Part shown: piece after piece, positions 11,322 to 23,202 of the stretch
Numbering within the stretch: position 1 is the first letter of the stretch
Layout of the letters: each line of letters starts with the position of its first letter
Assembly: GCA_029251865.1 (NCBI GenBank)
Contig: JAQXCN010000037.1
Span: 1 to 64,000 of the forward strand
DNA from: Crocinitomicaceae bacterium
Lineage (GTDB): Bacteria; Bacteroidota; Bacteroidia; Flavobacteriales_D; Crocinitomicaceae
DNA length: 64,000 nt
Reading direction: 5' to 3'
Notes under the pieces: model-generated
Told to the model about the DNA's origin: nothing
Seen by the model: the letters and a program-made list of their open reading frames with translations, nothing else
The model's database searches: none
Program-made: the position numbers and the translations under genes

Positions 11322-12434
11322 TTAATAAATTACGCAAGAAATAGCGCGATGATCACTCAATTTTTCTTTCTGGATTTTAAAGGATGTAGAATTCAATTCT
11401 TTTGAATGAAATATGTAATCAATACGACCAGCAGGTAAAAGTCCAATATATGTGGATCCAAATCCTGAGGATGTATTCCTAAATGCATCAATGAGTTCAT
11501 TTTCAAATATATGGTATGTATAAGAGATAGGAGTGTCATTGAAATCCCCACAAACAATGGTCGGGTAAGGAGATTTTTTGATGTGTTGGCTGACAGTCTT
11601 GCTCTGTTCTGCTCGTATAGCAAAAGCTTTTTTTAATTTTCGATAGGCTGTCTTAATGGTAGATTGGGTATTCTCAGTCCCGTCGTCTTTTGTCTTCTTG
11701 GTGGCGTAATTAGTTTCTAGTTTTATGGATTGAAGGTGAACATTATAAATACGAAGTGTATCTTTTTCTTGGGTCACGTCAATGTAAATACAATAGTTAT
11801 TATTGTTTTTATTTGCGCCTTGATGTTTTACATAGCCTTTATTCACTACTGGGAGTTTTGAAAAGGTTGCAAGACCAAAGGTTTGCCTATTACGTGGAAT
11901 TTGGATTCCTTTTATATGAATTTGTGGGTCATCCATAATTTCCACAATGGAATCTATTGTTATAAAAGATGATGGTTTTTTTTGTTCGTAGTATTCTTGA
12001 ATACATAAGATATCCGGTTCTTCATCCCTAAAGTATTTAAATATTCCATTCCGGGTTGACTTTGCATTTTTCATACTCGGGTTGTATAAGTCAAAAAGCC
12101 TTACGTTATAGCTCATTAATTTGATCTGACTATCCGATTCCTTTGGGATATCAGTGGGAAGGACGTTAAATGAAAATATTTTCATCTGATATGGGAGGCT
12201 GAGACCGAATAGAATTAGTGAACATAAAAACCAAGTTCTATTTTTGAAGAACCAAAGTATGCAGAATACAATGTTCAATAATATAAGTACAGGGAATCCC
12301 AATCCAAGAAAAGGGAGTAGTGGAAATTTTGCTGGATTAATATATGGCGTGAGTAGTGAAAGAAGCAGACATAAGCCTACAGCAATGTGAAAAGTCTTGA
12401 CAATCAAGAACAGTAAGGCATTTTTTTTACCCAT
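11322..12434 (-). CDS. Endonuclease/exonuclease/phosphatase (EEP) family membrane protein
   Basis: A 370-residue protein with about three hydrophobic N-terminal spans (residues 5-90) and a C-terminal EEP fold. The metal and active-site motifs read 'LMSYNVRLFD' (Asn), 'DILCIQEYYE' (Glu), 'VCGDFNDTPIS' (Asp/Asn), 'RIDYIFHS' (Asp) and 'LSDHRAISC' (Asp-His), so the fold looks catalytically complete. Whether it cuts DNA, RNA, phospholipid headgroups or phosphoesters cannot be decided. The catalytic part probably faces the periplasm if there are three spans. It overlaps the upstream rhomboid gene by 8 bp. Confidence 0.88.
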   Translation of the reverse strand: MGKKNALLFLIVKTFHIAVGLCLLLSLLTPYINPAKFPLLPFLGLGFPVLILLNIVFCILWFFKNRTWFLCSLILFGLSLPYQMKIFSFNVLPTDIPKESDSQIKLMSYNVRLFDLYNPSMKNAKSTRNGIFKYFRDEEPDILCIQEYYEQKKPSSFITIDSIVEIMDDPQIHIKGIQIPRNRQTFGLATFSKLPVVNKGYVKHQGANKNNNNYCIYIDVTQEKDTLRIYNVHLQSIKLETNYATKKTKDDGTENTQSTIKTAYRKLKKAFAIRAEQSKTVSQHIKKSPYPTIVCGDFNDTPISYTYHIFENELIDAFRNTSSGFGSTYIGLLPAGRIDYIFHSKELNSTSFKIQKEKLSDHRAISCVIY

Positions 12435-13314
12435 TTTTACTTTGGTTAAACAGGAAGTCTTTTTCCTTTTTGCTTAAGGAGTCGTATCCAGATTTAGATA
12501 TTTTGTCTAAAATGTGATCCGTTTGATCCTGCTTGCTCTTCTTTTCGTAGTTATATTCTTCGTCCGATTTTGTTCTTCTTTTTTTAGGTTTTGCTTTGCC
12601 TATTCTTTTAAAGGTTTCACGAATACGTTTAGAAAGCTCATCAATTTTAGTCAAAATATTTTTAGGTGAGTTGAGGTTCTGCATGGCAAGAAAGCCAAAC
12701 AAAGCCCCTCCCAAATGAGCGAAGTGTGCAATATGGTCATTGGCGTTGCCAATTCCAATTAAATCATTAGCAAGAAAAAAAAGGGCCAGGACAAATAATC
12801 TAACTGGAAGCACGCCAAACAAGAAGACCTTTGTGTTTGGACTGTAAAAAGCTAATGCGGCAAATATTGCCATTACGGAACCAGAAGCGCCAAGAACGGT
12901 GTGGTATTCATTTGGAAATAGCAATGTGGTTGAAATAACTTCGCCTAACCCACCTGCAAGACCGCCAAATAGATAGGTCAATAATAACATTCTACTATTA
13001 AAATAACGTTCAAATAAATTTCCTGCGAAGTATAAAAAAATCAGATTTGAAAAAATATGCATTAGGTCAAAATGCGCAAAAATACTTGTGATAAACCCCC
13101 AAGGCATGCTTAGTGCTCCTATTAAAGTTGCATCTAGTGTGAATGTTTTTTGAATCAAAATACTTATGAAACTGACACCACTTATTTTTTCAAGGGCAAA
13201 TAAAAGATGAATGAGAAGAAATACACAAATATTTACAATAACAAGTTTATTTGTCATTGTACCACTTTTGAGTTGGAATTTCAACTCTTCAAAAAGGTTT
13301 CTTTTTTGCTGCAT
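12427..13314 (-). CDS. Rhomboid family intramembrane serine protease (second of the pair in the operon)
   Basis: A 295-residue polytopic membrane protease. The catalytic dyad is S144 in 'LGASGS' and H200 in 'AHFAHLGG', with the oxyanion-region 'HIFSN' (H86, N90). About six transmembrane segments are followed by a hydrophilic, Lys/Arg-rich C-terminal tail of some 80 residues that the neighbouring rhomboid lacks. It starts immediately after the stop codon of the other rhomboid gene and overlaps the EEP gene. Both members keep their catalytic residues, so neither is a pseudoprotease. Substrates are unknown. Confidence 0.93.
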   Translation of the reverse strand: MQQKRNLFEELKFQLKSGTMTNKLVIVNICVFLLIHLLFALEKISGVSFISILIQKTFTLDATLIGALSMPWGFITSIFAHFDLMHIFSNLIFLYFAGNLFERYFNSRMLLLTYLFGGLAGGLGEVISTTLLFPNEYHTVLGASGSVMAIFAALAFYSPNTKVFLFGVLPVRLFVLALFFLANDLIGIGNANDHIAHFAHLGGALFGFLAMQNLNSPKNILTKIDELSKRIRETFKRIGKAKPKKRRTKSDEEYNYEKKSKQDQTDHILDKISKSGYDSLSKKEKDFLFNQSKNG

Positions 13315-14025
13315 TTACCAGAAGTTATTTCTGTCTTTTTTTCTCCAAAATAAAACGATAATAGCACCAACTACGGCACCGCCTACATGTGCTAAATGTG
13401 CAGTAGAGTCACCTGATTCATTGAGGTAGGATTGATAGACTTCAAAGAGAAAATAAGCCCCCACGAACCATTTGGCTTTGATAGGTATTGCAAAATATAG
13501 ACGAAACTCTGTATTAGGGAAAAGTATGGCGAATGCAGCCATTACGCCAAATATGGCACCCGAAGCACCGACCATGGGTGTATTGATCATAACCAAATAC
13601 TGATTAATCAATTCATTATTCGTAAAAGATTCCAATCTGTTGATCTCACGAATGGAATGCCCTTGGTCAATAATCTGCGTCTTTAAGGCTTCAATTTCGT
13701 AGACGCCAATTACATTAAATAAAGCAAATGCACCCAGAGCACAAAGAATATAAAAAATAAAAAACCTTTTCGGGCCCCATATTTTTTCTAGATAGCCACC
13801 GAGCATTATGAAAATCCACATATTGAAGAAGATGTGAATGAAATTAGCATGCATGAAAAAGTGTGTAACAACCTGAAACGGTTCAAATAACGGTGAGTTA
13901 ACATAGTGTGCACCAAACTTTGAAATCAGGTTTATATCTTGAGCACCTAAAAACCAACTCGCTGCAAAAAACATGATGTTTAAAATCAGTAAGTTTTTGG
14001 TTACTTGTGGCAGATTGTTGAGCAT
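13315..14025 (-). CDS. Rhomboid family intramembrane serine protease (first of the pair)
   Basis: A 236-residue rhomboid with six predicted spans. Active-site residues are S155 in 'VGASGA' and H213 in 'AHLAHVGG', with 'HIFFN' (N68) in the second transmembrane helix. It ends with a short basic tail. It is separated from mutL by 1 bp and from the second rhomboid by 0 bp, so all three are almost certainly on one transcript. The loop between spans 3 and 4 (about residues 110-147) is longer than in its neighbour and may decide substrate access. Confidence 0.94.
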   Translation of the reverse strand: MLNNLPQVTKNLLILNIMFFAASWFLGAQDINLISKFGAHYVNSPLFEPFQVVTHFFMHANFIHIFFNMWIFIMLGGYLEKIWGPKRFFIFYILCALGAFALFNVIGVYEIEALKTQIIDQGHSIREINRLESFTNNELINQYLVMINTPMVGASGAIFGVMAAFAILFPNTEFRLYFAIPIKAKWFVGAYFLFEVYQSYLNESGDSTAHLAHVGGAVVGAIIVLFWRKKDRNNFW

Positions 14026-14026
14026 A

Positions 14027-15847
14027 TTAAAATTTAGTAGTTAATTCTTCTATTGTCAATGTTTGCATAATTGGTTTACCAAAAGGGCAAAAAGAATGTT
14101 CCTCGCATGAAAACAGTTGGTTAACAAAACTTTCAATTTCATGTTCAGTGCGAAGTTTTATGCCTTGAGATGCGACAAACACTAATTTTGAAATTAGTTC
14201 ATGCGCAAGTTCCCCCTTATCAGGTTTTTGCGGTGCAATCAAAGATGACGTTATACCTTCAATGCATGATTTGCTATCCTTTTCTGTAATACATGCAGGT
14301 AAACTTTCGAGTTGAAATGTTTTATTCTCAACCTTGAAACTAAAGCCGAGCTGGGAAAGTAGTGATTTAGAATCGTTCCAAGCATCGATTTCATTCTGAT
14401 CAAGCTCAAGACCCAAGGGAAACATTAGTTTTTGTGCGCTTAAAGGCTGTGCGACAAAGCGTAGCATCATTTCATCATAAAGTATTCTTTGTTTTCCTCT
14501 GTAGGAATCAATGATGAGTACTCCAGATTTTACATTACTCAGTAAATAACGGTCTTTAACCAAGTATTTGTTTTTGGTATAATTTTCTTCCGTTTCGATG
14601 AAGGATGTTTGACTTTCTTTATTTTCTTCCCGAATGGCGTAGAAATCCTCCCATTCTTTGGCATCACTTTTCTTCCCGAACCCTTGGTTATTTAATGCCT
14701 TATTTGAACTGGTACTGGAATTTTTTTTCGATTCGAATTTAGAAAACGGATTGTAGTTTGGATCTACCTTAATCTCAGGCTCTACAGGTGTCTCTTTTTT
14801 ATGAGAAAGTGGAACATCAAAGCTTGTTTCGACTTCGAAGTCTATACTTGGGGCAATGTTATATTTGCCTAAGGCTTGTTTGATACTTGAAAGCAAAATT
14901 GAATAGATAAATTTACCTTCTTCAAAATTGATTTCTGTTTTTGTTGGATGAATATTGACGTCAATTTTTTCAGTATCAATGTCAAAATAAATAAAATAGG
15001 AGGGATGCGATTTCTCTGAAATAAGCTGTTCGAATGCTTTAGAAACAGCATGATGAAAATAAGAATGCTTAAAAAATCTACTGTTTACAAAGAAATATTG
15101 TTCACCTCTTGATTTTTTAGCACTTTCTGGTTTTCCAACAAATCCTTTAATAGAAACGATATCAGTTTTCTCCTCAATAGGTACTAATTTCTCATTGCTT
15201 TTGAGTCCAAACACATCTGTGATGCGCTTCCTAAGGTTGCTTGGATTCACATTGTGAATTTCATTCCCATTATGGGTGAGTACGAAGCCTATATCTGTGT
15301 GTGCGAGCGCAACTCTTTCAAATTCATTTCTAACATGCGAAAATTCAGCCGTATCTGATTTTAAAAATGTACGTCGTGCAGGAACATTGAAAAAAATGTT
15401 TTTTACTTCAACACTTGTACCTTTTTCGCAGATACATTCCTCATTTCTTGTAGGGGTGCCTCCGTTCATTTCAATACAAGTTCCTGTATCTTTTTGATTT
15501 TCTGTTCTTGACTTAAGTGTTACATGTGCTATTGATGCGATAGAGGCTAATGCCTCACCTCTGAAACCTTTCGTTTTCAATTGAAAGAGATCTTCTACAT
15601 TTTTCAGTTTGCTTGTAGCGTGTCTTGTAAAACACATAGCGGCGTCGTTTCTCGTCATTCCACTGCCATCATCTTGGATAAGAATACTCGATCTTCCTGC
15701 ATCTTTAATATGAACCTTAATAGAAGTCGCACCCGCATCCACTGCATTCTCTAAAAGCTCTTTTACGACGGAGGCAGGTCTTTGAATAACCTCACCTGCA
15801 GCGATCTGATTGGAGATCTGTTCTGAAAGTAAATTGATAATATCCAT
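14027..15847 (-). CDS. mutL: DNA mismatch repair protein MutL
   Basis: A 606-residue GHKL ATPase linking mismatch recognition by MutS to strand removal. The ATPase motifs are intact: 'KELLENAVDAG' (E33, N34), 'DDGSGM' (59-64) and 'GFRGEAL' (94-100). 'NVHP'-type 'DVNIHPTKTEINF' closes the N-terminal domain. A low-complexity linker runs from about 340 to 425. The C-terminal domain lacks the DQHAX2EX4E metal motif of nicking MutLs: the matching segment reads D447-S-Y-R-G-K-Q-R, and the later CPHGRP motif reads C587-P-F-G-K-P. The start codon shares one base with the upstream stop (TAATG). Confidence 0.97.
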   Translation of the reverse strand: MDIINLLSEQISNQIAAGEVIQRPASVVKELLENAVDAGATSIKVHIKDAGRSSILIQDDGSGMTRNDAAMCFTRHATSKLKNVEDLFQLKTKGFRGEALASIASIAHVTLKSRTENQKDTGTCIEMNGGTPTRNEECICEKGTSVEVKNIFFNVPARRTFLKSDTAEFSHVRNEFERVALAHTDIGFVLTHNGNEIHNVNPSNLRKRITDVFGLKSNEKLVPIEEKTDIVSIKGFVGKPESAKKSRGEQYFFVNSRFFKHSYFHHAVSKAFEQLISEKSHPSYFIYFDIDTEKIDVNIHPTKTEINFEEGKFIYSILLSSIKQALGKYNIAPSIDFEVETSFDVPLSHKKETPVEPEIKVDPNYNPFSKFESKKNSSTSSNKALNNQGFGKKSDAKEWEDFYAIREENKESQTSFIETEENYTKNKYLVKDRYLLSNVKSGVLIIDSYRGKQRILYDEMMLRFVAQPLSAQKLMFPLGLELDQNEIDAWNDSKSLLSQLGFSFKVENKTFQLESLPACITEKDSKSCIEGITSSLIAPQKPDKGELAHELISKLVFVASQGIKLRTEHEIESFVNQLFSCEEHSFCPFGKPIMQTLTIEELTTKF

Positions 15848-16158
15848 TAACGCATTATTTTGAAAATGACCTTATCGATGTCATCCAGACCATTTAAAAG
15901 AAAGTAACCAAGCACGAAAATAAGAGAAATTAAAACAAGAGTTCTTGTATTTTGCGAGTAGACAGTGTTTTTTGTGACTTTATTTTCTTGCCTTTTTTCT
16001 TCCATTTTTTCGCGCATCAAAAGTATGCGTTCTTCCTCTGAAAGTTTTTCATTGGCGTAAAACTTTTTCTTAAGTTCAGTTTTCTCTTTCCGGGCATCAT
16101 AGTACCGCGGAAAATAGCCGAATCTTTTAGGTTTTATATTAGAATTTAAGAATTTCAA
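15847..16158 (-). CDS. Small single-pass membrane protein of unknown function
   Basis: A 103-residue protein with a strongly charged, Lys/Glu-rich N-terminal region (about 1-70, likely helical) and one hydrophobic segment near residues 72-90. Similar short genes next to mutL in flavobacteria are, from memory, sometimes labelled 'riboflavin synthase subunit beta', but nothing here resembles a riboflavin enzyme. The gene is coupled to mutL by a TAATG overlap. A 64-bp gap separates it from the sigma-factor cassette upstream. No function is proposed. Confidence 0.75.
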   Translation of the reverse strand: MKFLNSNIKPKRFGYFPRYYDARKEKTELKKKFYANEKLSEEERILLMREKMEEKRQENKVTKNTVYSQNTRTLVLISLIFVLGYFLLNGLDDIDKVIFKIMR

Positions 16159-16222: not shown

Positions 16223-17458
16223 TTAGAGTCTTACAACAGTTCCCATATATTCTGGTCTTTCTCCTATTTCCGGATTCTGAAGAACTACTTTCCAAACGAA
16301 TGGTTTATTTTCATCAACAAGATCTCCCGTATTTTTATTAATACCCTTCCATGGTTGACCTGCATTACTCGTTTTAAAGATTACGGCACCATTAGTTGGG
16401 TCTATAATTATCATATTAAAGGCTACGTCTCTTTTAGTCAATGCAAATGGCATGAAGGTGTTGTTCCTGTGGTCAGAACTGTTCGGTGTAAATGCATTAA
16501 CAGCAAGTAGGTTGTAGTTTTTCTCCACAAAGAAAGAAATCTCGTCAGTGCTTTGACAACCGTTTCCATCTTTGTAGGAAGCTTTAATATTGTAATTTCC
16601 TTTGTCAAACAATAAACATGAATTTGAATTCCCATTTTCTTGGATTTTTTTTCCGTTTACTAACCATTGCACTTCTTTTTCTGTCAAGGCTTGAACGTTA
16701 AGAACAGGAAGACCACTCTCAAAGTTTAGATAATCGTCTGTGTTTATTTGAAGCTGTTTTGCTACAGAGACATTGAATGATTCGGAACCTACGAATGTTT
16801 GGTCTTTGTTAAGTATACCGATTTGGTACCTACCTGTTTCGTAGAGAGGAAGGGTTGTTTTATCAGATGAACCAATTTCCTCTAATTCCTCAGAAGGAGA
16901 TAAAATGTATATCGATTTATTATTTAAATTGGTGTATGTCAATTTCTCACCGAGACAATGGTCTCGTGGTTTGTCAAACTTCAATGGTGAATTGGTTTTT
17001 TCTGGCTTAATATTCAGCGTTGCGACTTCTCTGTATACAGGTGGTTTGAGATTTGTTACTTTTTCATCAATATTAGTCTCATGGATTGGATTTACGGGTT
17101 TCGCCTCTGTCAGACGTGAATCTTCTATTTTCGGCTCATTTTTCTTTGAAGTTGATTTGTCAGGAACAACATTAACGGTTTGTACCTTTTTTTCTTCCAG
17201 GTTTTCAGTGGTTTGATTTTCATCCTTGTTGATAATTACCGCGGTTTGTACTTTGTCTGTTATAGGCTCTTTTTGTGTAAAGAAGTACAATGCAGCAATA
17301 AGCACAATGCCTGCTATTCCAATGGACCACTTTAATGCACCATTAGATCCCGAGTTCTTGGCGTCTAATTTTTCACTCATCTTGGTCCACGCTGAAGCAT
17401 TGTAAGGCAGTTCGTGGTCTTTTAATGAATTTTTAAATAAATCTTCTATGTCGCGCAT
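16223..17458 (-). CDS. Anti-sigma-like single-pass membrane protein with CHU_C-like C-terminal domain
   Basis: A 411-residue protein encoded 1 bp after an ECF sigma factor. Residues 1-43 are polar and would lie in the cytoplasm ('DIEDLFKNSLKDHELPYNAS'), residues about 44-61 form one membrane span, and the rest would be periplasmic: a Lys/Glu/Thr-rich linker, PKD-like strands (about 220-310), and a final domain (about 315-411) with 'NAFTPNSSDHRNNTF' and 'GAVIFKTS...PWKG'. The last domain resembles the gliding-motility-associated C-terminal domain (CHU_C) of T9SS type B cargo. Position and topology suggest it controls the sigma factor. That role is inference. Confidence 0.72.
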   Translation of the reverse strand: MRDIEDLFKNSLKDHELPYNASAWTKMSEKLDAKNSGSNGALKWSIGIAGIVLIAALYFFTQKEPITDKVQTAVIINKDENQTTENLEEKKVQTVNVVPDKSTSKKNEPKIEDSRLTEAKPVNPIHETNIDEKVTNLKPPVYREVATLNIKPEKTNSPLKFDKPRDHCLGEKLTYTNLNNKSIYILSPSEELEEIGSSDKTTLPLYETGRYQIGILNKDQTFVGSESFNVSVAKQLQINTDDYLNFESGLPVLNVQALTEKEVQWLVNGKKIQENGNSNSCLLFDKGNYNIKASYKDGNGCQSTDEISFFVEKNYNLLAVNAFTPNSSDHRNNTFMPFALTKRDVAFNMIIIDPTNGAVIFKTSNAGQPWKGINKNTGDLVDENKPFVWKVVLQNPEIGERPEYMGTVVRL

Positions 17459-17459
17459 T

Positions 17460-18032
17460 TTATTCTCTTAAATTACTGAATTGCTCAGTTAATATTTGCT
17501 TTAAATTCTTTTTTGCCTTAGACAAATTTGACTTGGATGTTCCTTCACTAATCCCTAGCATCTCGGCTATTTCTTTATGTGAATAATCTTCAATGACAAA
17601 TAAGTTAAAAACCGTTCTGTAAGCCGGAGATAACTTTTGGATCGCTTCCACTGCTTTTTCAGCTCGTAACTCGATCAATTCAACTTTTTCGTTTTCTTCA
17701 ATTTCATTTGAAGCTTCAACTCTAAAATCGTTGTCATTGTCTTTTAATATTGGGGCTCTTTTTGACTTACGGATTGCATCGATTGCGGTGTTAACAACAA
17801 TTCTCCGCACCCATCCTTCAAAAGAACCTTTAAAATCAAAAACCTCCAATTTATCAAAGACCTTGATGAAACCTTCTTGAAGCACTTCTTGTGCTGTATC
17901 GTGGTCAGGAACGTAACGCATGCAAACCGCTAACATCTTACCATAGAACATTTGAAACAGAGCTTCCTGCGACCGGCGCTTGTTTTGCAAGCATCCGTTA
18001 ACAACTTCCTTTAATTTCTCTATATTCTCCAA
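17460..18032 (-). CDS. ECF-family RNA polymerase sigma factor (TTG start)
   Basis: A 190-residue sigma-70 family factor. Region 2 is about residues 20-90 ('FYGKMLAVCMRYVPDHDTAQ', 'FEGWVRRIVVNTAID'); region 4 is about 130-185 ('LSPAYRTVFNLFVIEDYSHKEIAEMLGISE' pattern). The start is TTG at 18032: an in-frame TGA lies 6 bp upstream and the next Met is residue 28, inside region 2. The downstream gene, 1 bp away, encodes a membrane protein that may act as its anti-sigma factor. Target promoters are unknown. Confidence 0.93.
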   Translation of the reverse strand: MENIEKLKEVVNGCLQNKRRSQEALFQMFYGKMLAVCMRYVPDHDTAQEVLQEGFIKVFDKLEVFDFKGSFEGWVRRIVVNTAIDAIRKSKRAPILKDNDNDFRVEASNEIEENEKVELIELRAEKAVEAIQKLSPAYRTVFNLFVIEDYSHKEIAEMLGISEGTSKSNLSKAKKNLKQILTEQFSNLRE

Positions 18033-18164
18033 GCCTCAACAATTTTTAAACGCATTATTTCATGCAGCGTTGCCTCGCAATGCAAATAAATCAATCGTAA
18101 ATAAAACGAATTTCTATTAAATGTATTATTTTCGTATCGATATTTAATTAATAAATAATTACAA

Positions 18165-19109
18165 ATGAAAGTAACGGTAGTAGGTGCCGGAAATGTAGGT
18201 GCAACTTGTGCAGATGTTTTGGCCCAAAGAGAAATCGCAAATGAAATTGTCCTTTTGGACATTAAAGAGGGTTTTGCTGAAGGTAAAGCACTCGACATTT
18301 GGGAAACATCTCCAGTTAATTTGTACGATTCAAAAACAATTGGATCTACAAACAACTATGAAATGACGAAAGACTCTGAAGTTGTAGTAATTACTTCCGG
18401 ATTACCAAGAAAACCTGGTATGTCTAGAGATGATTTAATTGCTACAAATGCAGGTATTGTCAAGTCAGTAACAGAAAACATTGTAAAGTATTCTCCAAAT
18501 GCGAAAATCATTGTTGTTTCAAATCCATTAGATGTGATGACCTATTGTGCTTATCTAAGTGCAAACTTTCCATCGAGCAGAGTATTTGGAATGGCGGGTG
18601 TTTTGGACACTGCGCGCTACAGAGCTTTTCTTGCGACGGAATTAAATGTTTCGCCAAAGGATATTCAAGCGGTGCTTATGGGTGGACATGGTGATACAAT
18701 GGTTCCGTTACCGAGATATACGACAGTTGGAGGTATTCCGGTAACTGAATTAATTGAGGAAGACAAATTGAATGAAATCATTGAAAGAACAAAGTTTGGT
18801 GGAGGAGAAATTGTTAAGCTTCTAGGGACTTCAGCGTGGTATGCTCCAGGAGCATCGGCTGCACAGATGGTTGAAGCTATTGTGCGGGATCAAAGAAGAA
18901 TATTTCCTGTTTGTACCTGGTTGCAAGGAGAATATGGATTAAGTGATATTTACTTAGGTGTTCCTGTTGTTTTAGGTAAAAACGGAATTGAAAAGATTAT
19001 TGAACTCGATTTGAATGATGCAGAAAAAGCCCTTTTAAGCGAATCTGTTGAAGCTGTAAAGAGTGTAATGGCTGTTTTAGATAACATGAACGCCAGTGTT
19101 TCTGAGTAG
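18165..19109 (+). CDS. mdh: Malate dehydrogenase
   Basis: A 314-residue LDH-like NAD-dependent malate dehydrogenase of the TCA cycle. The Rossmann motif 'VGAGNVGAT' (6-14), the substrate-binding region 'PRKPGMSRDD' (R82, R88), 'DTARYR' (about 148-153) and catalytic His175 in 'GGHGDTMVP' are all present. The Arg at the specificity position (R82) favours malate/oxaloacetate over lactate. It is a single-gene unit ended by a strong hairpin. It is divergent from the ECF sigma gene across 132 bp, where no full TAnnTTTG box was found. Confidence 0.97.
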   Translation: MKVTVVGAGNVGATCADVLAQREIANEIVLLDIKEGFAEGKALDIWETSPVNLYDSKTIGSTNNYEMTKDSEVVVITSGLPRKPGMSRDDLIATNAGIVKSVTENIVKYSPNAKIIVVSNPLDVMTYCAYLSANFPSSRVFGMAGVLDTARYRAFLATELNVSPKDIQAVLMGGHGDTMVPLPRYTTVGGIPVTELIEEDKLNEIIERTKFGGGEIVKLLGTSAWYAPGASAAQMVEAIVRDQRRIFPVCTWLQGEYGLSDIYLGVPVVLGKNGIEKIIELDLNDAEKALLSESVEAVKSVMAVLDNMNASVSE

Positions 19110-21854: not shown

Positions 21855-22439
21855 ATGAGATTGTTTACCCCTCAATATTCTAAACAAACGGATGAAGAAC
21901 TCATGTCTGCCTTAGGCAAAGGTGACAAGCGGGCTTTTAATGAAATATATGACCGCTATTCTCAACCTTTGTTTGGATATTTTATGAAATTACTTGCCCG
22001 GGATCATGGAAAATGTGAGGATCTGGTTCACGATTTGTTTGCAAAGATCATCCGTAAGCCAGATTACTTTGATACAACACGATCTTTTAAAACTTGGGTG
22101 TATTCGGTGGCTTCAAATATGTGTAAAAATGAATACAAACGCATGGCTGTTCGCAAGAATGTTAAAAGCGATATGGAGCCTGCCCAATTTTTAAAATCTA
22201 GTTCTGATACATTAAAAACAGTTCAAGAGAAAGAATTTGGTGCGGCGCTGCAGGAAGTCTTAGTTAAAATGGATGAGAAGCATCAAAGCGTTTTTAGGCT
22301 TCGGCACTTTGAAGGATTTTCAATGAAGGAAATAGCTGAAGAATTATCAATCAATGAGGGGACCGTAAAGTCTAGATTGTTTTATGCAACGAAAACTTTA
22401 GCCGCCTCACTCAAAGCGTTTAACCCAATATATCATTAA
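21855..22439 (+). CDS. ECF-family RNA polymerase sigma factor
   Basis: A 194-residue sigma factor. Region 2 ('GDKRAFNEIYDRYSQPLFGYF', 'CEDLVHDLFAKI', 'FKTWVYSVASNMCKNEYKR') spans about 15-100; region 4 ('MDEKHQSVFRLRHFEGFSM', 'INEGTVKSRLFYATK') spans about 135-190. It is distinct from the ECF factor at 17.5-18.0 kb. It lies in the middle of a three-gene unit with 1-bp gaps on both sides, so expression is likely stoichiometric and perhaps autoregulated. Target promoters are unknown. Confidence 0.92.
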   Translation: MRLFTPQYSKQTDEELMSALGKGDKRAFNEIYDRYSQPLFGYFMKLLARDHGKCEDLVHDLFAKIIRKPDYFDTTRSFKTWVYSVASNMCKNEYKRMAVRKNVKSDMEPAQFLKSSSDTLKTVQEKEFGAALQEVLVKMDEKHQSVFRLRHFEGFSMKEIAEELSINEGTVKSRLFYATKTLAASLKAFNPIYH

Positions 22440-22440
22440 T

Positions 22441-23202
22441 ATGGAGGATAAGTATTTAAAATTATTGACACGTGATAGTTATGACGTGCTGAGCTCAGAT
22501 GAAAAAAACGCACTCAAAGAGTTGTGTTCGAACCAGGAAGAGTTTGAGAACGCAAAACATTTTATGTATGAAATGGCTGAATTGGATTCAGGGCGTGAAG
22601 CGTTTGATTCGGAAAAGATTAAGTCAAAGCTCGATGAAACCTTTTCTCAGGTTTATTCTGGTGCGGAGGGAGGTGGTTGGTTTCACTTTCTTTTCCCTCC
22701 TCTAACTCCTTTAATAAGAAGACCTGGTGTACAATTGGCGGCGGTATTTATTTTAGCACTCGGATCATATGTCTTTCTGCAGTTTATAAGTTTTGATGCG
22801 AACATTCAGCGTCCAACTCTAGCCGAAAATACGCAAAAAAATGAGCGGCAATCCGAGATCAAAGAGCTTTCTCCGGATGATGAAAGTATTTTAACCAAAC
22901 CTTCAGAGTCAAAAATAATGGTGGAAGATAATGTGGAAATCGTTTTACGAGAAGAGGATGTTAATAGGTCCGTTCGTTCTTCTCAATTGGAAAATGCATC
23001 CCCATTGCCTCTATCACGAATGGATAGTGAATCAGCAGGTTTTGCCCTAAGTTTCAATGCGGAAGTTGAAGAAAGTATAGTTATCGAAGATGAAGTTGCT
23101 TTTGAATTAGATACGGAGATCGTTGAAGACCATCAACAATTTTTGATCCCGACAATTGAAGAAAGCCCCGAGCTTTTAGATGGACTTTTTGTTACTTTCT
23201 AA
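22441..23202 (+). CDS. Single-pass membrane protein, putative anti-sigma factor
   Basis: A 253-residue protein starting 1 bp after the ECF sigma stop. Residues 1-95 are soluble and helical ('YLKLLTRDSYDVLSSDEKNAL'), residues about 97-117 form one membrane span, and the remaining ~135 residues are acidic and low in recognisable structure. An N-terminal cytoplasmic helical domain, one span and an outer domain is the architecture of many anti-sigma factors, but no zinc-binding HXXXCXXC motif is visible. The function is inferred mainly from position. The last 11 bp overlap the convergent methyltransferase gene. Confidence 0.68.
   Translation: MEDKYLKLLTRDSYDVLSSDEKNALKELCSNQEEFENAKHFMYEMAELDSGREAFDSEKIKSKLDETFSQVYSGAEGGGWFHFLFPPLTPLIRRPGVQLAAVFILALGSYVFLQFISFDANIQRPTLAENTQKNERQSEIKELSPDDESILTKPSESKIMVEDNVEIVLREEDVNRSVRSSQLENASPLPLSRMDSESAGFALSFNAEVEESIVIEDEVAFELDTEIVEDHQQFLIPTIEESPELLDGLFVTF

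Follow-up and report, generated by a model that had tools for sequence, protein, structure and literature searches.

A putative membrane anti-sigma factor carrying a diverged relative of the type B T9SS sorting domain, and its ECF sigma factor, in Bacteroidota

It is, to our knowledge, not settled how Bacteroidota adjust the amount of giant surface adhesin they make to what the T9SS can handle. The window analysed here, a stretch of 64,000 nucleotides from a Crocinitomicaceae bacterium, raises a related question, since it contains an ECF sigma factor gene followed by the gene for a membrane protein whose end resembles the sorting domain of type B T9SS cargo. What might such a domain do on a protein that appears to be anchored beside a sigma factor? 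A conserved pair with a cargo-derived sensor would provide a concrete and genetically simple entry to the matching of adhesins to the T9SS. It would also illustrate a general evolutionary move in which a secretion address label is turned into a sensor, and it suggests that gliding-type bacteria would read the state of the export route to control their own surface adhesins.

The sigma factor gene and its partner

The features of the locus are the following.

18165..19109, plus strand: malate/lactate dehydrogenase gene, divergent from the sigma gene; a conserved neighbour, given as context and outside the system
18047..18074, minus strand: ECF promoter predicted to serve autoregulation (GGCAAC-N16-CGTTTA), some 16 bp before the TTG
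17460..18032, minus strand: ECF sigma factor gene, 190 aa, TTG start at 18030-18032, assigned by Pfam/NCBIfam profiles
16223..17458, minus strand: gene for a membrane protein, putative anti-sigma factor, 411 aa, ATG start, 1 bp past the sigma stop
17336..17458, minus strand: residues 1-41, short conserved N-terminal part with invariant W24, predicted to be cytoplasmic and presumed to bind the sigma factor
17279..17335, minus strand: residues 42-60, the one hydrophobic span, of 19 residues (Kyte-Doolittle 1.94)
16985..17278, minus strand: residues 61-158, linker, polar and variable, about 97 residues long (hydropathy, alignment)
16763..16984, minus strand: residues 159-232, first Ig/PKD-like domain with invariant C168 (beta strands, pLDDT about 80)
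16523..16762, minus strand: residues 233-312, second PKD-like domain with invariant G300-C301
16226..16516, minus strand: residues 315-411, CHU_C-like domain lacking the R-W-G motif described below (profiles, alignment, tree)

The sigma protein matched Sigma70_r2 (57.7 bits) and Sigma70_r4_2 (64.3 bits), both well above the Pfam cut-offs, as well as TIGR02937 (103.3 bits), and it has regions 2 and 4 without region 3, which is the composition of an ECF sigma factor. The preliminary description of this DNA had noted that the gene starts with TTG and that an in-frame TGA lies 6 bp upstream of it; the sequence bears this out. Its placement of the partner gene, 1 bp behind the sigma gene, was likewise confirmed, both genes lying on the minus strand at the coordinates listed, and its layout of the partner (a short N-terminal part, one span, a linker, PKD-like strands and a CHU_C-like end) agrees with the hydropathy and with the domains found in relatives. 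Residues 42-60 form the only span above 1.4 on the Kyte-Doolittle scale and follow a conserved polar N-terminus, so that by hydropathy the protein has no Sec signal peptide. PKD_4 scored above its cut-off in eight of ten distant orthologues from other orders, and C168 and C301 are invariant in all 28 aligned partner proteins. An AlphaFold2 model built on three sequences (mean pLDDT 46.3, pTM 0.33) was usable only at residues ~160-235, with the C-terminal domain below a pLDDT of 40 and unusable. Foldseek returned mostly Ig-like adhesin arrays with TM-scores below 0.3 by query length, which is consistent with Ig-like domains and no more.

The pair is widespread, well past what chance would give. 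Matches to the partner were found in 150 of 150 genomes of the same family, most of them near full length in an open frame of ~400-480 aa and the rest part matches. Within the order, 194 of 199 genomes had some match to the partner profile, with full-length ones in many families, and within the class 179 of 197 had some match, mostly to ordinary PKD/CHU_C proteins (in both cases among the best 9-12 candidates, at most, per genome). Full-length orthologues could be read from the match table in roughly 33 class genomes outside the order, while among 198 genomes of the phylum those outside the class gave partial pieces only, with the best nine or fewer candidates scored in each. In 73 of 73 loci the sigma frame ends at or near the partner start, always in the order sigma then partner; these include cases of the same gene fetched twice, and 62 are unique by sigma sequence. 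Since the 73 loci were chosen on the partner alone, the presence of the sigma gene is independent evidence. The pair was also intact at every one of the 44 loci in a second set, which is wider, overlaps with the first and covers 18 families of one class (20 loci from other orders, 16 from the same order, five from the same family, two named relatives that are uncultured Flavobacteriales, and the window), and the proposal that its conservation be examined was thus answered in favour of the pair. The malate dehydrogenase gene was the divergent neighbour in 59 of the 73 loci, whose flanks often extend only 1500 bp.

The partner adjoins the sigma gene, has a single span and carries an N-terminal part that, including W24, is kept across the class while the linker is not. 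It is from this position, topology and conservation that the putative anti-sigma role is assigned. The window protein matched no Pfam/NCBIfam anti-sigma domain and, up to E=10, no FecR domain, and when the N-terminal parts of 22 relatives were compared with the known anti-sigma families the one match was to NF052375 at E=0.042. Class I membrane anti-sigma factors of the RseA/RsiW type pair with ECF sigma factors, and the present pair is similar to these in that the sigma gene comes first, a single-span partner second, and the operon appears to have a self-promoter. It differs in that the N-terminal part matches no catalogued anti-sigma domain and in that the sensor would be derived from a secretion signal. 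A broader rule, by which every CHU_C protein near 400 aa in length would count as an anti-sigma factor, was rejected: of 16 loci chosen for a CHU_C match within an open frame some 350-470 aa long, only one (L139) had an adjoining ECF sigma gene, and most of the others were read as signal-peptide cargo, often followed, as judged by eye, by a PorP/SprF-like ORF.

The promoter predicted ahead of the sigma gene recurs in its relatives. NGCAAC-N16-CGTY stands at a nearly fixed spot before the sigma gene in 52 of the 62 unique loci, compared with 0.02 expected from shuffling, and takes the GGCAAC form in 45 of the 52. The first in-frame start downstream of it is GTG in 28, TTG in 22 and ATG in two of these loci, mostly 14-19 nt past the -10 box. 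The TTG start is therefore no peculiarity of the window, GTG or TTG being used in 50 of 52. We infer from this a very short leader and a weak initiation of the sigma factor relative to its partner, which in the window starts with ATG. The element at 18047-18074 is the sole perfect match in the window's genome, where the strict pattern gave this one match compared with three in a reversed control. Over 116 genomes of the family, matches elsewhere were at about the control level, and with a loose pattern (353 matches compared with 422 in the reversed control) none beyond the sigma factor's own promoter could be discerned. A regulon beyond this promoter was therefore dropped, since neither the strict nor the loose counts exceeded those of the controls. 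In Flavobacterium psychrophilum, the available part of PMC9723704 describes an ECF-type promoter class, SM6, that drives T9SS genes and one ECF/anti-sigma pair (THC0290_1774/1773). As far as that part goes, ECF-type promoters with a CGT -10 box are common to both systems, whereas for the window's sigma factor no such regulon is detectable; the likeness is one of promoter type and does not imply orthology of the pairs.

Origin of the C-terminal domain

The preliminary description had likened the end of the partner to the sorting domain of type B cargo and had named a profile search with CHU_C and TIGR04131 as the check. On the window protein alone the outcome was weak, as Pfam CHU_C (PF13585) gave 15.3 bits (E=0.022), under its cut-off of 27 bits, and TIGR04131, with a cut-off of 35 bits, gave no match. 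Among the window protein and 22 family relatives, CHU_C was matched in seven at E up to 1. The distant orthologues from other orders were more telling, with nine of ten above the Pfam CHU_C cut-off, and three of ten at or over that of TIGR04131, the other seven scoring 22 to 33.4 bits. A CHU_C profile built from the cargo of the window's own genome matched the C-terminal end of 20 of 20 class-level orthologues. Since the relatives pass where the window copy by itself falls short, we take the window's domain, on the strength of these profiles, to be a diverged homologue of the type B sorting domain. The likeness claimed at the outset thus stands as homology established through relatives, although not by the score of the window copy itself.

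To compare the domain with that of cargo, 100 C-terminal domains were aligned, comprising 31 anti-sigma domains from the family, 20 from the class, 29 cargo domains from the window's genome and 20 from neighbouring cargo genes. The CHU_C sequence of L086 (its frame is open at a contig end, and it was later recognised as the second anti-sigma-like protein considered below), two rows from L077 and cargo frames running off a locus were left out. One site separates the two groups completely. At what we call here, from the alignment, the R-W-G motif (NRWG/DRWG), R or K, then W, H, Y or L, and then G were found in 49 of 49 cargo domains and in 0 of 51 anti-sigma domains. The anti-sigma domains have a signature of their own, L-L/F-A before the F-T-P strand and P-x-A-L after it, and many of the distant copies have kept the NGDG-ND part of cargo. 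In the tree the 51 anti-sigma domains fell on one side of a single branch, apart from the 49 cargo domains (support 100/97; 200 of 200 bootstrap trees), although with 104 columns its inner detail is weak and the midpoint root is for drawing only. The simplest account of this pattern would be that a cargo module was captured once and has since been inherited vertically.

Type B CTDs require PorP/SprF shuttles and five conserved motifs, and altering any of the five blocks secretion, according to the part of PMC12618676 at hand; the name R-W-G comes from the present alignment and does not refer to those motifs. The portions available of PMC9143113 and PMC12618676 describe PorP/SprF-type outer-membrane proteins as binding type B CTDs. 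The partner shares with type B CTD proteins (CHU_C PF13585 / TIGR04131) a homologous C-terminal domain that follows PKD-like domains, as it does in cargo. It differs in the absence of R-W-G, in forming its own clade, and in having a span after a polar N-terminus in place of a signal peptide. Because the motif that marks all of the compared cargo is missing from every anti-sigma copy, the domain appears to be a relative of the sorting signal and is not evidently a working one.

Neighbouring cargo genes and a second pair

In 20 of the 44 loci, from eight families, the immediate same-strand neighbour of the pair is a type B cargo gene, and in 22 of 44 such a gene lies within two genes. When longer stretches were inspected, giant cargo of 2878-4011 aa was found at L118, L152 and L155, which are counted as negative among the 44, and at L173, a 45th locus; L153 may be a split case of the same. 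SprB repeats occur in some of the adjoining cargo, with 20 stretches in L171 and one and three in two others. The window's genome encodes SprA and has 30 CHU_C matches above the cut-off in 2.38 Mb, from which adjacency by chance would, as a rough estimate, be a few per cent, and more in cargo-rich genomes. In the window's own family and nearest relatives, however, no adjoining cargo gene was found (0 of 8 loci). The preliminary description had seen in the pair a sensor of the T9SS or gliding-motility state. The linkage to cargo in relatives, including giant adhesins with SprB repeats, supports this part way and is the strongest hint that the sensed state would be that of the T9SS or of adhesin export, whereas the absence of R-W-G from all 51 domains and the lack of linkage in the window's own family count against it.

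Several smaller features of these loci are recorded here. A small ORF without family matches lies between the anti-sigma gene and the giant CHU_C cargo gene at L171:17464-17802 (113 aa) and L118:9374-9769 (132 aa), and ORFs of similar size lie behind the anti-sigma gene in L153, L158, L159 and L173. A DUF3078 protein (PF11276) is encoded directly ahead of the sigma gene at L109:6306-7277 and L118:6323-7291, both loci belonging to one family, and a type A (TIGR04183) T9SS cargo gene lies ahead of one sigma gene at L113:310-1950.

When the window's genome was searched with the N-terminal part of the partner alone, one other convincing match was found (E=4.3e-4), on contig C10.

L148:3-1341 (contig C10 of the window's genome), minus strand: second ECF sigma gene with a CHU_C-ended anti-sigma-like gene, cut by the contig end

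Here an ECF sigma gene is followed by an overlapping gene whose product has a similar N-terminal part, a span, a long acidic linker without PKD matches, and a CHU_C domain above the Pfam cut-off. The two sigma factors share 78 of 177 residues. The C10 CHU_C domain likewise lacks R-W-G, and by reading it is the only one without R/K-x-G among the aligned CHU_C sequences of the window's genome.

What the periplasmic part may sense

Our preferred reading, which we hold to be somewhat probable, makes the partner an anti-sigma factor in the membrane whose periplasmic sensor is a tethered mimic of type B cargo, and ties it to type B export. We propose a tethered mimic because the cargo-type domain has been kept, R-W-G is absent and the protein is anchored. 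Residues 1-41 would hold the sigma factor in the cytoplasm, the one span would cross the inner membrane, and the flexible linker would place the two Ig/PKD-like domains and the CHU_C-derived domain in the periplasm. There the anchored tail, of cargo type and without R-W-G, may compete with real cargo for a periplasmic partner of type B export, for which a PorP/SprF-type shuttle, the SprA translocon or the cargo itself would be candidates. Whether this partner is occupied would in turn determine the release of the sigma factor, in one direction or the other. The released sigma factor would then transcribe its own operon from GGCAAC-N16-CGTY, and as in many relatives this operon probably runs on into type B adhesin genes, a feedback between adhesin export and adhesin expression would result. 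A bolder version is put forward tentatively, as possible and a little short of probable. In it an anti-sigma factor would have acquired a T9SS export signal on one occasion, after which the export motif would have gone and the domain would have come to serve, class-wide in Bacteroidota, as a decoy-cargo sensor coupling the export of type B (SprB-like) adhesins to transcription.

The absence of R-W-G is just as compatible with a domain that has given up all contact with the T9SS. On that supposition the partner would be a generic periplasmic sensor, in which an Ig/PKD and CHU_C-derived fold was recruited once and now senses envelope stress, redox state (through C168 and C301) or a ligand, with release of the sigma factor by regulated proteolysis, the release route in RseA/RsiW systems. 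The absence of the motif from all 51 domains, the two invariant cysteines and the missing cargo linkage in the window's family all fit such a sensor. Type B cargo next to nearly half of the 44 loci, in eight families, would be hard to explain if the T9SS origin were irrelevant, as would a second CHU_C-ended anti-sigma-like protein in the same genome that has no PKD matches, and we consider this alternative rather unlikely.

We regard as improbable a further possibility, in which the tail would be bound by the T9SS itself and pulled on or cut away by it, and release of the sigma factor would signal a machine that is complete but idle. Flagellar FlgM, an exported anti-sigma factor, would offer a counterpart in logic, except that the protein here is tethered. 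In its favour are the homology of the domain to a T9SS export signal, its place at the very C-terminus, the NGDG-ND part retained in many distant copies, and a linker that might in principle be long enough to cross much of the periplasm. Against this, no cleavage site was identified in the partner, and R-W-G is gone from every copy, while in type B cargo a change in any one of the five motifs is reported, in the available part of PMC12618676, to stop secretion.

It is highly improbable that the partner is no anti-sigma factor at all and is an inner-membrane-anchored, adhesion-type protein merely sharing the sigma operon, as its failure to match the curated anti-sigma families might allow, for its N-terminal part is conserved where the linker is not, the order of sigma then partner is strict in all 73 loci, and the second pair has an N-terminal part of this type as well.

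Returning to the tethered mimic, a related link between the T9SS and a sigma factor is found in Porphyromonas gingivalis, where, from the part of PMC7712824 consulted, the CTD protein PorA feeds PorXY-SigP. On that portion of the source, the two systems are alike in that a T9SS CTD protein supplies the input to a route whose end is an ECF sigma factor. They differ in that PorA is located at the cell surface and signals via a two-component system, whereas here the domain would be part of the putative anti-sigma factor itself. In the open-licence literature, which was the scope of the search (subscription papers lie outside it), we recognised no description of a protein like the partner, and none that combined anti-sigma factor, gliding motility-associated C-terminal and type IX secretion.

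Two other parts of the window may be mentioned. The same-strand tract behind the pair (11322-16158, minus strand) encodes a 103-aa protein without family matches, mutL, two rhomboid proteases (PF01694) and a protein of the endonuclease/exonuclease/phosphatase family. Rhomboids near a membrane anti-sigma factor are a possible lead for a release protease; downstream of mutL they were found in 3 of 44 loci, those of the window and of the two relatives nearest to it, many of the 44 ending short of that position. At 21855-23202 on the plus strand lies another pair of an ECF sigma factor and a membrane protein, in which the partner has no CHU_C match and the sigma factor resembles the first one little (48 of 194 residues shared).
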